DNA from: a virus
DNA: 30,155 bases
Strand: one strand, 5' to 3'
Virus record (IMG/VR): IMGVR_UViG_3300033146_000757
Location: 1-30,155 of that record
Shown: positions 2,780 through 13,667 of the stretch, one piece after another
Layout: each line of letters opens with the position of its first letter
How positions within the stretch are numbered: the stretch's first letter is position 1
Notes under the pieces: generated by a model
Told to the model about the DNA's origin: nothing
Seen by the model: only the letters and a program-made list of their open reading frames with translations
The model's database searches: none
Translations under genes and position numbers: made by a program

Positions 2780-3351
2780 AAATCATATCCGGGTTTCGTG
2801 TCTACCGGTTCTATATTACCCTCAAGGCACATTTCCAGGGAAAGGCAGATATAACAGCATTCGATTATAACCCATTCCGGTTCACATATGCAACATATCT
2901 CGATAACAAAGGACTCAACTACTTTGAGTGGTTGGCCACCAAACTAAGAGATGATAGTACCACTATCAACTTTTTCATAACAGCGTTTCTTCTTGACAAT
3001 ACACACACCATATATAGTATTTGTGATGACTATGAGACAATCCGGGAGAAGATGGAAATCCGTCTTGGTAAGATCGAAAAGATGGCCTACCACTTCAAGA
3101 AGGATTGTAAATATCTCATAGATGCTGGATGGAAATTTGATAAGGATATGGGCAACTTTCTTCTCAATCAATTTCTGTCCTCAAATATAGAATTGGAGAC
3201 TTTCATAATTTTGAGAAAAATGTTCAATTTCTCCCTTGACGGATTACCAGACTATGAATATATTTACCGTGATATGTACGAGAGGTACGAACTTTTTTTC
3301 AGTATTGACATGGAGAAGTACAAAACAATTTTAGAGGAGGCTATCATGTAA
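2776..3351 (+). CDS. 59: Replicative helicase loader, gp59-like
   Basis: This encodes 191 residues (T4 gp59 has 217). It resembles T4 gp59 along most of its length: an N-terminal VYRFYITLKAHFQGK segment like VYKLYLMIKQHMNGK of T4, an ITAFDYN segment, a central region (residues about 50-95) beginning YFEWLATKL, and a C-terminal helical region with LSSNIELETFIILRKM matching T4 LQSNIISFETFILLDS. gp59 binds forked DNA and gp32 and loads the gp41 helicase at replication forks. It overlaps gp33 by four bases and lies directly before gp32, its known partner. It ends in GAG GAG GCT ATC ATG TAA, so a ribosome-binding-like sequence lies within its last codons. Confidence 0.85.
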   Translation: MKIISGFRVYRFYITLKAHFQGKADITAFDYNPFRFTYATYLDNKGLNYFEWLATKLRDDSTTINFFITAFLLDNTHTIYSICDDYETIREKMEIRLGKIEKMAYHFKKDCKYLIDAGWKFDKDMGNFLLNQFLSSNIELETFIILRKMFNFSLDGLPDYEYIYRDMYERYELFFSIDMEKYKTILEEAIM

Positions 3352-4433: not shown

Positions 4434-4473
4434 AAAATAGGGGCCATTTCAGAACGATTTGGCCCCTATTTTT
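4434..4473. terminator. Strong bidirectional rho-independent terminator
   Basis: AAAATAGGGGCCA (4434-4446) pairs perfectly with TGGCCCCTATTTT (4460-4472), leaving a 13-base loop. The A run on one arm and T run on the other let it work on both strands. It lies between the convergent ends of gp32 (rightward) and the tape-measure-like gene (leftward), and overlaps the latter's stop codon (4472-4474). Confidence 0.92.
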
Positions 4474-7285
4474 ATGCTCCGTAAGTTTCTACGAGTTGAT
4501 TTGTTGCTCTGTCCGTATCGAATGCCGGAACTGGCATGGTGATATTTGTTGTGCTTCCACCAACCACAGTATTGTTATTTGATACCGCATTGGTGATGGC
4601 ATTCACATTTGATGCCTGCTTCTCAACTTCAATTTCCTGTTTGGTATCAATAATATCCTGTGTCTTTTGGATATTCCTTACCTGTTCTGGATGGAATACA
4701 TCATAAAGCCATCCACCAAGAGATTGATTCTGGCCACCAGTAAGTTTCTGAACCATCTTGTCTATACCCTTATTGATGATGGTTCCAACACCATATCCAA
4801 CAGCACCAGCGGCACCAACAGCAAGAGCAGGAGCACCCAATGTTTCAGCACCAGCGGCAATTGCACCACCAGCTCCACGAAGAAGACCACCGGCTCCCCT
4901 AAGAAGGCCACCAGCACCCTTTCCGAGTTTAGGAAGGTTTTTTCCAAGAGACTTACCAAACAGGATATTACCCAGGATGCCGCCACCGGTAGCGGTAGCA
5001 CCACCGAGACCGGCAGGAAGCATTTTCAGAATATTTTGCATACCTTTTGGCATTACCTTCTCAAGAAGTCCAGCAATACCAGTCTCATCTGATTTGCCCA
5101 GGCAATCACATAATTTCTTGATAGAATCATCAGCAATTACTACACCATCCCTGGTGATAGTATCAACAATAGTGGTCATGCTATTCTGAAACATCTCTGC
5201 CCGGTATGCGGCATCACTTGCTTTCTCTTTATCATAGATAGCGAGGGCTTTAGAATCCAAGGAGGGCTTCGCTTTGGGAGGACTCAGGAGTTTGTCAAAG
5301 TCCTCTTTGCAAGGGAGACATTTTTGGATGTCTGTTCTAAGGTCTTCAATGGCAACATATTCTTCTGCATTGAACTCTACAATCTCACGAAGAAGACCGA
5401 TCTGTTCAATCTCTTTCGGTGTATATTTGCCAAAATTGAATGGAATGGTAGTGATTCCCTTCTCAACTCTCCGGTTCAATTCATCCATTCCATAAAGAAT
5501 CTCTTGATTGATTCTCAAGTTCAATTCATCCATTCCATAAAGAATCTCTTGATTGATTCTCAAAAGATTGAGATAGAAGTTACCATTCTCATCTTCAGCA
5601 AGCTGTTCAAAACATTTACAACTTCCACTCTCACGAATAGCCTTCACAAGTTCAATATGCTGATCATGAGACTTATCACGAAGAATTTCAGAGGCAGTCT
5701 TAACAAACCTGTTATCGGTAACTTTCTTGATACCTTTATACAAGAAACCACCAGTCTTGCGCAGGTATCCCTCAAACCGTGTTCCTCTAATCTGTTCTAA
5801 CTTGGAAATGGCAAACAATGGTTTAGCAACCATTCTGGCAAGGTCTGCCCGATTGGATGCAAGCCATTCCATAACCTTGATGATCTTCTTCCGTTCTTCA
5901 ATACTCAGAAGTTTCTCGGTTGCCTCTTTCTGCTTGTTTACCGCTTCTGTTGTTCTCTCAGTTCGTTTCTCTTCAAACTTCTGTTCTTTATCGAACATCT
6001 GTTCTTGACGTTGCGCCTCTTCTTTCTGGCGGAACTTCTCACGATCCTTCTCATACTTCTCTGATTTCTTAGAGAATCCACTGAAGATACCCTCATCAGC
6101 TAATCTTTTGATACTGTCATACACACCGGTATAGACAGAATCTTCCATAACATCAGCAACAGAGTCGAATAATTTCTGTGTATCAAATCGTTCAAAACCA
6201 GCCAGCATACCACTGGATACAGAATCCCGAATGATAGGTTCAAGAGAACCAAGAAAATCTTTGGTAATAACTCCGGTATCTTCCTTCTTCTCTTCTCCAG
6301 TTTTCTGAGTGTCTACTCGCTGTTCAATTCTTTTGATATTACGTGCCTGAACAGAAAGTTCTCTACCGGAAATGAGTTTGAGCCTATCATTGTTTTGCTG
6401 TGGTGCTTCAATAGCACGTCTACGGGTCCATTCTTCCGGGAGGTTGGTTAGTGCTTTACCAAGGACCATACCACCAACACTACGTCTTCTATCAAATAAT
6501 CCAGCAGGAGATTCTTTCAGTTTACCGGTATCAGATGTGAGAGTATACTTTCTCAACATACGTTCCCGGTCACTCATTTCCTCATCACGAGCAATTCGCT
6601 TCTCAAGAGATTTCTTTATGTTGTAATCTCTCTCGGCCCTGATCAGTTCCCTCTGTCTCTCCTTCTCCCGTTCAACTGCCTCTCTCTTCTGACGTTGATA
6701 ATCACCAATAACACCACCAATAAAGGCAGGCACCATGGAATTGCCAAAAACAGAAGTAATAATACCGGCAATATCAGGCAAGTTCTCTCTGACCGCATTT
6801 GCAAGAAACTTTGTATTGGTTACTTTGGAAGAACGAACCACCTTAGCCGCCTTGGTGGTCTCCTTGATGATATTTGACAGTTCTCTCTTCTCTTCCTTGG
6901 AGAGAGCATTTGTCTGTTTGACAATCTTTCGATACAGCTTGACTGTTCTCTGTATCTCCTTCACTTCAGCCTTTGTTCTGGCCTGATGTATATCTTCGGT
7001 GATACTTTGAATTTTGTCAAGGTAATTCTGATAGGACTCAGTAATGCCCTTGCCGGTTCTGGTAAGACGCACTTCTGCATTAGCTGTCATTTTCACTATA
7101 TTGGATTCAATATAGGACAGCTTTCTCTCGTAATTCCTGGTGAAGTGTTTAGCCAGAGTCTTGACTTGCTTTTCTACTTCCTGATTGACTTGACGAATCT
7201 CTTCCTCATCACGGAGAACACCAAGTATATTCTTGGTTGATCCTTGCGGTGCAGGTGTGTTTGATCCTCTTGGCGGCTTTGACAT
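4472..7285 (-). CDS. Tape-measure-like tail protein
   Basis: This encodes 937 residues. Long charged coiled-coil helices (about 25-165 and 195-260, and again around 400-460), short hydrophobic segments (about 168-193 and a glycine-rich stretch near 765-850) and low-complexity Gly/Ala repeats (GAGGLLRGAGGLLRGAGG) are typical of tail tape measures. It lies directly downstream of a gp26-type hub protein and a small partner, the place of the tape measure in many contractile-tailed phages. If each residue spans about 0.15-0.16 nm, as in T4 gp29, a tail tube near 140-150 nm is predicted (inference). The ATG at 7285 has AGAGGA seven bases upstream. A perfect 45-bp in-frame tandem duplication lies at 5474-5563. 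It could alternatively be another large tail-lumen or internal virion protein, since I see no direct gp29 sequence match. Confidence 0.65.
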   Translation of the reverse strand: MSKPPRGSNTPAPQGSTKNILGVLRDEEEIRQVNQEVEKQVKTLAKHFTRNYERKLSYIESNIVKMTANAEVRLTRTGKGITESYQNYLDKIQSITEDIHQARTKAEVKEIQRTVKLYRKIVKQTNALSKEEKRELSNIIKETTKAAKVVRSSKVTNTKFLANAVRENLPDIAGIITSVFGNSMVPAFIGGVIGDYQRQKREAVEREKERQRELIRAERDYNIKKSLEKRIARDEEMSDRERMLRKYTLTSDTGKLKESPAGLFDRRRSVGGMVLGKALTNLPEEWTRRRAIEAPQQNNDRLKLISGRELSVQARNIKRIEQRVDTQKTGEEKKEDTGVITKDFLGSLEPIIRDSVSSGMLAGFERFDTQKLFDSVADVMEDSVYTGVYDSIKRLADEGIFSGFSKKSEKYEKDREKFRQKEEAQRQEQMFDKEQKFEEKRTERTTEAVNKQKEATEKLLSIEERKKIIKVMEWLASNRADLARMVAKPLFAISKLEQIRGTRFEGYLRKTGGFLYKGIKKVTDNRFVKTASEILRDKSHDQHIELVKAIRESGSCKCFEQLAEDENGNFYLNLLRINQEILYGMDELNLRINQEILYGMDELNRRVEKGITTIPFNFGKYTPKEIEQIGLLREIVEFNAEEYVAIEDLRTDIQKCLPCKEDFDKLLSPPKAKPSLDSKALAIYDKEKASDAAYRAEMFQNSMTTIVDTITRDGVVIADDSIKKLCDCLGKSDETGIAGLLEKVMPKGMQNILKMLPAGLGGATATGGGILGNILFGKSLGKNLPKLGKGAGGLLRGAGGLLRGAGGAIAAGAETLGAPALAVGAAGAVGYGVGTIINKGIDKMVQKLTGGQNQSLGGWLYDVFHPEQVRNIQKTQDIIDTKQEIEVEKQASNVNAITNAVSNNNTVVGGSTTNITMPVPAFDTDRATNQLVETYGA
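5474..5563 (-). repeat. Perfect 45-bp in-frame tandem duplication in the tape-measure-like gene
   Basis: Bases 5474-5518 and 5519-5563 are identical over 45 bases. The repeat adds 15 codons, duplicating NLRINQEILYGMDEL in the protein. Exact identity at all codon positions indicates a recent event. Confidence 0.95.
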
Positions 7286-7312: not shown

Positions 7313-7495
7313 TTACATCTTGCGGCTTTTCAATCTCTGCTGTTCTTGTTTCAATCTTTTTTGAATGAGCGCAAGGTAAATCTCACGCTCATACGGTAGC
7401 ATATTCTCTATTTCAGTGAGAGAATAGTTATGATCTGAGATAAGAACCGAGTTTGTTTCATAATAATTGTAGATGCTATCATGAGAAAGACTCAT
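7313..7495 (-). CDS. Small hub/tape-measure assembly partner (possible frameshift extension)
   Basis: This encodes 60 residues. The core SLTEIENMLPYEREIYLALIQKRLKQE is like small proteins found after gp26-type genes in other T4-like phages (family recalled, not named). It is helical with a charged C-terminus. Its ATG overlaps the stop of the upstream gene (TAATG) and no well-placed ribosome site precedes it: the nearest GAGGG is about 18 bases away. It would therefore be made by re-initiation or as a -1 frameshift extension of the 246-residue protein. It lies 27 bases upstream of the tape-measure-like gene. This two-gene arrangement ahead of a tape measure recalls the G/GT tail-assembly chaperones of lambda-type phages, although that functional analogy is inferred. 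Confidence 0.75.
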   Translation of the reverse strand: MSLSHDSIYNYYETNSVLISDHNYSLTEIENMLPYEREIYLALIQKRLKQEQQRLKSRKM

Positions 7496-8235
7496 TAGAA
7501 AAAATCGACAATACCCTCAAAGGTGTAACTATCCTTATGGCCACACTTAGGGCATGTGTACTCGATTTTATGGGTTAAATTTGGCATCTTATCAAAGAAT
7601 TTCTCTTTGATTTCAAGATATACATTGTTTGGAATGGACTCAATGAACTCCACCAGCTCTTCACGGGGGGTTTCATCAGCATTCCATACGTTATCGTCAT
7701 CAAAAATAGTATCAACCAATCCTACCAGCAAATCTTTGTTGGTAAAATTCTCATCTTCAGAGACATCAAGAATCATGTCAATGGTTGGGAAACGAAGGGT
7801 GATGCCGATTTTCTTCTTCTCATCCACAACAAAAGTATTCTTAAATCCTTTATCAAACTCTACCTTGATCTTGCTGATGTCGATGGTTACTGGAATAAGA
7901 CCACCGCATCTCTTTGGTTCACCTTCGTCTACCGGTGGAATCTCATTCATACATCGCATTTCCAGTTCAACGATTTCCCCAACAGATTTTGATCTCAATT
8001 GCAGGAACAGGTATTCAATATCAAAGATAGCCAGAGCATCAGGATCAAGTTTTTCAAAAGAACAAACTCTGATGATGTCTTTCATGGCACCTGCGATTTC
8101 TCGTGGGTCTTTTGATTCCCGGATAAGCATAAGAATGGACTCTTCCTTGATACGGAAAGGGCGCATTTTTACAGGTTTCTTTGTAGAAGGAACCTTTGCT
8201 GTGAATGTTGGGGTACTGATTGTAGGTAATGACAT
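7495..8235 (-). CDS. 26: Baseplate hub assembly protein, gp26-type (T4_baseplate family)
   Basis: This encodes 246 residues. The pattern MRPFRIKEESILMLIRESKD, then IIRVCSF, and then DIEYLFLQLRSKSVGEIVELEM is that of the T4 gp26/gp51-type hub assembly proteins. Two cysteine pairs, Cys95 with Cys110 and Cys228 with Cys231 (TCPKCGHK), probably form one zinc ribbon joining the middle and the C-terminus. T4 gp26 is shorter (208 residues). The ATG has AAGGAGA upstream. It lies between a tube-fold gene and a small partner plus tape-measure-like gene, so it probably helps build the hub or load the tape measure. Its last codons hold a slippery heptamer. Whether it corresponds to gp26 or gp51 of T4 cannot be settled by reading alone. 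Confidence 0.75.
   Translation of the reverse strand: MSLPTISTPTFTAKVPSTKKPVKMRPFRIKEESILMLIRESKDPREIAGAMKDIIRVCSFEKLDPDALAIFDIEYLFLQLRSKSVGEIVELEMRCMNEIPPVDEGEPKRCGGLIPVTIDISKIKVEFDKGFKNTFVVDEKKKIGITLRFPTIDMILDVSEDENFTNKDLLVGLVDTIFDDDNVWNADETPREELVEFIESIPNNVYLEIKEKFFDKMPNLTHKIEYTCPKCGHKDSYTFEGIVDFF
7498..7504 (-). promoter_or_regulatory. Candidate -1 ribosomal frameshift site (T TTT TTC)
   Basis: On the minus strand the last codons of the 246-residue gene read GAT TTT TTC TAA. Grouped in the zero frame, this is the heptamer T TTT TTC (7504 to 7498), which fits the X XXY YYZ slippery rule. A -1 slip would read CTA and then ATG in the frame of the 60-residue gene, giving a fusion of about 307 residues. 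The stop codon directly after the heptamer could promote pausing. I did not find a clear downstream pseudoknot by eye. Confidence 0.5.
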
Positions 8236-8249
8236 AATATTCTCCTTTT

Positions 8250-8765
8250 TTACCTTGATGATTTTATTTCATAGCTGTGATATGACCAATTTATAGTGAC
8301 CTCAATGGGTTCTTGTGTGTCATACCCAAATTCTATATCAGACATTCCGTTGGGATATGCCTCATAGAATACTACATTTGCAGTCAATTTGTCAGTGAGA
8401 TCATATATATTCAACTGTACCTGTCCTACAATATCATTGTAATAGGCCATCCTGAATGATGAATCACCACCAACCATACGAATCCATCTATGGAAGATGT
8501 TCGCTTCTTCGATATATTTATTCAGATAGAATGACATTGTAAGGTCATCAAACAATTCTTCATTCGGTATCTTTCTCTTAGGACCAATGACAGAATGCTC
8601 AAATGATCCTGTGGTATGCCCCGGAATATTGCATCGGTTACAGTTCATCAAAATGTTTTGCTTGATGTCTACTGGTCCAGTAATGATCACTTCATACCTA
8701 TTCGGATGAAGTAATGGATTGTCTGCAACATGAGATGCTATCTTTTGTACACTGAATCTGCTCAT
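8250..8765 (-). CDS. Tail-tube-fold protein (gp19/gp54 type)
   Basis: This encodes 171 residues. The layout matches phage tail-tube proteins: an N-terminal NPLLHPNRYEVIITGP strand, a CNRCNIPGHTTGSFEH segment like the 'ATALPAG' region of T4 gp19, a FDDLTMSFYL strand, a middle helix (EEANIFHRWIRMVGG), and a C-terminal strand pair ending in PIEVTINWSYHSYEI, as in gp19 (ETFEVTLALDYWE). It could be the main tube subunit or a tube-like initiator that docks on the baseplate. In T4 the main tube gene sits beside the sheath gene, but here it sits in an operon with hub and tape-measure genes, which tilts toward an initiator or a second tube paralogue. The ATG at 8765 has AGAGGAG upstream and follows the previous stop directly (TAGATG). 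A CxxC (NRC region) is present. Confidence 0.7.
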   Translation of the reverse strand: MSRFSVQKIASHVADNPLLHPNRYEVIITGPVDIKQNILMNCNRCNIPGHTTGSFEHSVIGPKRKIPNEELFDDLTMSFYLNKYIEEANIFHRWIRMVGGDSSFRMAYYNDIVGQVQLNIYDLTDKLTANVVFYEAYPNGMSDIEFGYDTQEPIEVTINWSYHSYEIKSSR

Positions 8766-13190: not shown

Positions 13191-13667
13191 ATGTTAGAAC
13201 GTCATCATATTACTCCAAAATGTTTACTAAAACATAAAAATAAGGAGTTTATAGAAGACCCTCGAAATATTGCATATATAGAACATAAATATCATGTAAG
13301 TGTGCATAAATGGCTATTTATACTTACAGGCGATAGAGGGTGTGAATGTGCATGGAATGGGATGAAAACTGGTAAATTTAGATATGATTGGACAGGAGTT
13401 ACAGGAAGAAAAGATACATTAGAGACAAGAATAAAAAAGTCTCGTGTACGAATTGGGATGAAATTTTCTAAATCTCATTGTGAAAACATTAGAAAATCAA
13501 AAATTGGTAAAAACAATAAAAGATCAAAACAATGGTTTATAAATGGTCATTTATTCTATTCAGCATACGAAGCTGCCAGATTCTTTTCTGTAAGTGATGC
13601 CACCATAAAACGCTGGTGCAATCCACAAAGTAAATATCACACACCTTTATGTTATAAGAGGGGGTGA
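13191..13667 (+). CDS. Free-standing HNH homing endonuclease with NUMOD-type DNA-binding modules
   Basis: This encodes 158 residues. The N-terminus has an HNH core: [10 protein letters not shown] (residues 3-12), [20 protein letters not shown] (23-42). Residues 84-112 ([20 protein letters not shown]) are a NUMOD3-like basic minor-groove module and 116-145 ([15 protein letters not shown], then SDATIKRWC) a NUMOD1/helix-turn-helix module. Composition is clearly more AT-rich than its neighbours, with many AAA, AAT and ATA codons, which indicates separate origin. It lies between gp27 and gp5 and overlaps gp5 by four bases (GTGA). Homing endonucleases of this type cut a related genome at the same junction and spread by repair. 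It has a full-length layout, so it may be active. Confidence 0.88.

Follow-up and report, generated by a model that had tools for sequence, protein, structure and literature searches.

A divergent gp26-type tail assembly chaperone locus of a T4-like phage very likely expressed by −1 programmed frameshifting

The tail assembly chaperones G and GT of phage lambda are produced via a frameshift, which is said to have been described by Xu et al. in 2004. The Escherichia coli dnaX cassette consists of an upstream Shine-Dalgarno-like (SD-like) element, an A-rich slippery heptamer and a downstream hairpin, and its internal SD-like element stimulates frameshifting by pairing with 16S rRNA. According to a 2016 review (PMC5009743), a short form and a −1-frameshifted long form of the lambda chaperone are encoded between the tail tube and tape measure genes, and the G-T frameshift is widespread, T4 excepted. 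A 2010 review of T4 (PMC3004832) counts gp26 and gp51 among the hub assembly chaperones, gp51 being essential and its function unknown. According to PMC10274946, Vladimirov, Gautam and Davidson (Virology 566:9-15, 2022) reported T4-like phages in which a short gene is accompanied by a fused long one, and PMC12846349 credits the same authors with poly-T slip signals in the TAC-N genes of T4-like phages. As far as these citing papers tell, the link between gp26 and the chaperones was published in 2022 and is not new. Systems of this kind are already known in T4-like phages, and the locus considered here is a divergent new member.

The studied window (the whole analysed stretch of DNA) is a virus contig of 30,155 bases from an uncultured T4-like phage. 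It contains a gp26-type gene of 246 aa (7495..8235) and, in the −1 frame relative to it, a 60-codon ORF (7313..7495). Both are located on the minus strand, which the initial annotation had left unstated. We consider it highly probable that these two ORFs form one gene for a G/GT-type tail assembly chaperone yielding two proteins via −1 frameshifting. The gp26-type gene would then encode the short, G-like form (TAC-N), and the 60-codon ORF, the T-like C-terminal extension. The order of genes is tube, gp26, small ORF: a tail tube-like gene (8250..8765, minus strand; 9.1e-27 with the phrog_45 tail tube) lies directly upstream of gp26, and DNA end protector-like and head closure-like genes are found further upstream. 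The gene directly downstream (4472..7285, minus strand, 937 aa) had no credible family match in profile searches, and hence it is called a putative tape measure gene only by its position and length. In phiM12 a tape-measure-like annotation is given to the second gene after the small ORF. The putative tape measure protein of the window carries two near-adjacent identical 14-residue repeats, RINQEILYGMDELN (5474-5560, minus strand).

The likeness to lambda G/GT is one of arrangement, whereas the slip sequence and the proteins differ. Vandenendeviridae and Andersonviridae also resemble the window by arrangement: PMC12846349 gives a −1 shift at a T-rich site at the TAC-N end, before the tape measure gene, with the motif GTTTTT as opposed to T TTT TTN in the window family.

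The minus-strand junction reads ...GAG GGT ATT GTC GAT TTT TTC TAA TG... The slippery heptamer T TTT TTC (7498..7504, read 7504-7498) is immediately followed by the zero-frame stop TAA of gp26 (7495..7497), which has one base in common with an ATG of the −1 frame (7493..7495; TAATG). The initial annotation had placed this heptamer directly at the gp26-type stop and had predicted that a −1 slip would continue in the frame of the 60-aa gene to give a fusion of about 307 residues. Both statements are confirmed: after the slip the sequence is read as TTT TTT CTA ATG AGT, and the fusion comprises 307 residues (246 + Leu + 60). The −1 frame is open from −22 through the end of the 60-codon ORF with no intervening stop. 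An SD-like GAGGG precedes the slip site by 10-14 nt (7514..7518), and a possible downstream hairpin (7440..7496, −8.9 kcal/mol, z −1.70), weak in the window phage, follows it; all of these features are on the minus strand. This layout is similar to that of E. coli dnaX, with an SD-like element upstream of the slippery heptamer and a hairpin downstream, although dnaX is a different gene and its heptamer is A-rich.

TTTTTTC occurs nine times in the window, given 9.45 copies expected, and thus the presence of the heptamer alone is unremarkable. In 20 window ORFs, in-frame X XXY YYZ sequences occupy 22 of 9058 codon positions, and in-frame T6N, two of 9058. In-frame A AAA AAG was noted at nucleotide 243 of a 158-aa ORF (13191-13667, plus strand). 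For the four final codons of a particular gene, the probability of a chance heptamer amounts to about 1% if any heptamer is counted and to about 0.1% if only T6N is. As far as sequence can tell, the decisive evidence is conservation in relatives rather than the mere presence of the heptamer.

A first scan with gp26 itself as the query found no relatives, and scans with the small ORF found them. With the window small protein as the query (scan 1), the best 80 of 105 viral contigs were retained; with the small protein of S-PM2 (scan 2), the best 80 of 591. T TTT TTN is present at the gp26 end in 79 of the 80 contigs of scan 1 (best 80 of 105) and in all 80 of scan 2 (best 80 of 591), and all 160 have the small ORF in the −1 frame relative to gp26. 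The heptamer is present in 112 of 116 representatives at 90% gp26 identity, including the window and 12 cultured loci. The window gp26 shares no more than 39% identity with any of the 50 90%-identity representatives used in the codon test described below. The initial annotation had suggested aligning related phages to see if the heptamer and the relative frame are kept while the flanking bases vary; in the relatives they are kept (159/160 and 160/160 contigs, best 80 of 105 plus best 80 of 591) and the flanks are variable. It had also named the case that would speak against a frameshift, namely relatives in which the heptamer is lost and the small gene has its own ribosome site. A single contig of these 160, L022, comes close to it, having no heptamer and an ATG for the small ORF at +5, whereas the other 159 keep the heptamer. 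At the junction L022 contains extra sequence (about 2957-3010) with the repeat TTTGAG on both sides.

For the codon test, four of the 50 representatives did not contain the heptamer and were left out. In all 46 remaining ones the first Phe codon at the slip site is TTT, given the background of 68% TTT among Phe codons, and the preceding codon ends in T, also in 46 of 46. It is therefore hardly conceivable that the heptamer arose by chance in a T-rich Phe-Phe end and has no function. The count of TTTTTTC in the window, equal to the expectation, would fit such an origin, but the heptamer persists in 159 of 160 contigs (best 80 of 105 plus best 80 of 591), and the codon constraint has a log10 probability of −19.8 if the sequences are taken as independent. 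We rejected the chance explanation on these two grounds.

Start codons of the small frame (ATG, GTG or TTG) were searched for in the interval that begins at the upstream −1-frame stop and extends 21 nt beyond the stop of the zero frame. Among the contigs of scan 1 (best 80 of 105), 65 have no start, 13 have only GTG or TTG, and two have ATG; for the Kyanoviridae-like contigs of scan 2 (best 80 of 591) these numbers are 24, 16 and 40. In total, 89 of the 160 contigs have no start near the junction, and therefore the small frame there cannot be a normally started gene. In four contigs (L009, L016, L021, L049) the −1 frame has a stop no more than 13 nt before that of the zero frame, and no start follows up to +40. 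The window ATG is not conserved in most close relatives, given that only two of the 80 scan 1 contigs (best 80 of 105) have ATG near the junction. Since the window keeps it, a ribosome that stopped at TAA might restart at the overlapping ATG of TAATG in the window phage, with the free 60-aa protein being the only product of the small frame. ATG near the junction in 40 of the 80 Kyanoviridae-like contigs (best 80 of 591) and in several cultured phages is consistent with such re-initiation, and so is L022 with its ATG and no heptamer. Nevertheless, we consider it improbable: the 89 of 160 contigs that have no start to +21 (best 80 of 105 plus best 80 of 591) still keep the heptamer and the frame, and T4 has the small domain as part of an in-frame fusion. 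Moreover, initiating SD elements differ from frameshift-stimulating ones by their spacing, and the SD-like element of the window ends 18 nt before the ATG, which is too far for initiation and fits a frameshift stimulator.

Base-level constraint upstream of the slip site was estimated on 67 of 71 representatives at 70% identity (four that did not contain the heptamer were left out). The potential pairing with the 16S rRNA 3'-end just upstream of the slip site is much stronger than in synonymous recodings with a z-score of −10.9, which, as all z-scores here, overstates independence because the compared sequences are related. The constraint is confined to that segment; four other segments have z-scores from −0.6 to 1.0. 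It is seen both in the 44 loci that have no ATG (z −6.4) and in the 23 loci with ATG (z −9.2). The strength of the signal in the latter class, along with the presence of ATG in 23 of the 67 representatives (window included), would agree with both modes operating in phages like that of the window, the frameshift yielding the fusion and the retained ATG yielding some free small protein. We regard this combination as unlikely, though not negligible, given that the Met may be merely a part of the extension and that we know of no role for the free small domain.

Downstream of the slip site the family shows an excess of folding in the region from +5 to +55 relative to shuffled sequences (mean z −1.80, s.e.m. 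0.25; from −0.62 to 0.34 in 25 other segments), and in the region from +9 to +54 relative to synonymous recodings (mean z −1.65). A single conserved downstream helix was considered and rejected, as judged by eye the folds pair in different registers between lineages; therefore only lineage-specific hairpins are claimed. Taken alone, neither the GAGGG of the window (P 0.26 against synonymous recodings) nor its hairpin (z only −0.39 against synonymous recodings) is significant, and their strength was not used as evidence.

The same constraints bear on slippage of the polymerase, in which an extra T in the mRNA would allow ribosomes to read the fusion normally. Many close relatives do carry runs of 7-8 T. 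On the other hand, the window and 77 of the 80 contigs of scan 2 (best 80 of 591) have only six T followed by C, a run of six T is short for polymerase slippage, and the codon-phase and SD-like constraints fit slipping of the ribosome. We find this explanation very improbable.

Thus, the family as a whole gives good support to a −1 programmed frameshift yielding the long form of the chaperone, and such a frameshift is very likely in the window too. From the sequence comparisons we infer the occurrence and frequency of the slip and the partner proteins as follows. Most ribosomes would stop at TAA and produce the 246-aa short form, and a minority would slip back by one base on T TTT TTC, tRNA-Phe re-pairing from TTT TTC to TTT TTT, and produce the 307-aa form with the extra C-terminal domain. 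The slip is probably stimulated by base pairing between 16S rRNA and the internal SD-like GAGGG that precedes the site by 10-14 nt, and a downstream hairpin probably adds to this effect in many relatives. If the system works like lambda G/GT, the tape measure protein would be held by numerous short-form molecules together with a few long-form ones, and the extension would recruit the tail tube protein.

The window gp26-type protein matches PF12322 with the E-value of 1.1e-59 (202.3 bits, the curated cut-off being 24.5) and phrog_150 with 6.1e-59. The 60-codon ORF matches phrog_634 (1.9e-20), the C-terminus of phrog_150 (3.3e-9) and residues 204-246 of T4 gp51 (BLASTP, 3e-9). The gp26 family PF12322 is thus common to the window and T4, and the window extension is homologous to the C-terminal part of T4 gp51. 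On the phrog_150 profile (282 positions) T4 gp26 covers positions 14-235, and T4 gp51, positions 13-280. We also built our own HMM (299 positions) from 109 in silico fusions, T4 being excluded; three of 112 fusions failed the length filter. Alignment A1 contains 61 of 100 eligible relatives and the window. T4 gp26 matches this HMM over positions 10-239 (9e-27) and T4 gp51, over 23-283 (2.5e-14), whereas T4 gp25, gp27 and gp28 yielded no match. Since the coverage of the profiles splits in this way, the short form has its T4 counterpart in gp26, and the long fused form, in gp51. A weak match of T4 gp26 to phrog_1140, the gp28-type hub distal subunit, was also noted (E-value 9e-4; L094 6349-6882 and P0004).

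The AlphaFold2 model of the window gp26 has the mean pLDDT of 94. In structural realignment its residues 1-85 match the HK97 tail assembly chaperone 2ob9 best, with Z 7.1, which is below the value of 8 under which a score can reflect a mere common arrangement (rmsd 4.2, 83 aligned residues; the next row has Z 2.9). The HK97 chaperone is set apart from other matches only by this realignment; the Foldseek search of the gp26 model against PDB gave no significant match and ranked it 13-14 (E 6.6-7.0). Search of the gp26 profile against the sequences of solved structures gave nothing credible (best E 0.067, unrelated helicases). For the model of the T4 gp51 homologue (six sequences, pLDDT 83) the HK97 chaperone ranks fourth with Z 3.7. 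The N-terminal part of the modelled window gp26 thus appears to resemble the HK97 chaperone, although the window protein is twice as long and has further beta-rich parts and a CPKCG motif. The initial annotation had tied the gp26 type to tail assembly chaperones and suggested that the G/GT device operates in the gp26/60-aa pair. The former is supported by the match of T4 gp26 and gp51 to the short and fused forms and by the HK97 score of 7.1; the latter agrees with the heptamer in 159 of 160 contigs, the frame in 160 of 160 and the missing start in 89 of 160 (best 80 of 105 plus best 80 of 591).

The proposal holds for most relatives, but not in its canonical form for L022 and for eight of 19 cultured loci besides T4. 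The canonical heptamer is present in 11 of these 19 (S-PM2, P-TIM68, P-SSM4, KVP40, Aswh_1, DLP_6, phiM12, ACP17, P10VF, BUCT608 and XG4). The other eight have xTT TTY instead; they include Vi01, VAP7, EspM4VN, RC-2014, phiEa2809 and Zahir from Ackermannviridae and, listed apart, K413 and VPALA. In the Kuttervirus Vi01 the junction reads GAA ATT TTC ATT TAA. ATG is present in four of the eight (VAP7, EspM4VN, RC-2014 and K413). Together with 18 further contigs there are 26 such loci, and all 26 keep xTT TTY and the open −1 frame; 17 have no start, two have only GTG or TTG, and seven have ATG. In our set they are labelled L084, L095-L112, L123-L125, L127, L128, L089 and L090 (Ackermannviridae, K413/VPALA). 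Most examined loci of Ackermannviridae have neither the canonical heptamer nor a start codon of the extension. In the deposited annotation of L084, L088, L092, L089 and L128 the small −1-frame ORF is absent, truncated or called hypothetical.

In T4 the two forms come from two separate divergent genes on opposite strands, whereas the window has one locus with a slip site. T4 gene 26 ends with GAG TTC TTT GAG TTA CTA TAA, having no heptamer, and the −1 frame closes at once. We propose, tentatively and with slightly less than even confidence, that T4-like tail chaperones were ancestrally expressed through the dnaX-like cassette formed by SD-like GAGGG, T TTT TTN and a lineage-specific hairpin. 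This device would then have been remodelled in various ways: T4 would have divided it between two genes, L022 would have exchanged it for a free-standing start, and in Ackermannviridae it would have become a frameshift at the non-canonical xTT TTY. We did not find the family-wide SD-like constraint and the start-less xTT TTY junctions of Ackermannviridae described in the searched literature, where Vladimirov et al. (2022) is represented through citing papers only.

In marine T4-like phages, the annotations "baseplate hub subunit gp26" and "hub assembly catalyst gp51" very probably denote two ends of one frameshifted chaperone gene, and therefore many records would have a wrong or missing gene model. 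The result supports the published view that T4 gp26 and gp51 are the short and long chaperone forms. Loci with a slip site, split genes and an odd slip site provide a natural series for studying frameshifting versus gene duplication in setting the protein ratio. In the T4 region itself (L094 3803-5229) the divergent genes 26 and 51 are related, and Phe-Phe near the end of gene 26 is kept, but as TTC TTT and with the −1 frame closed.
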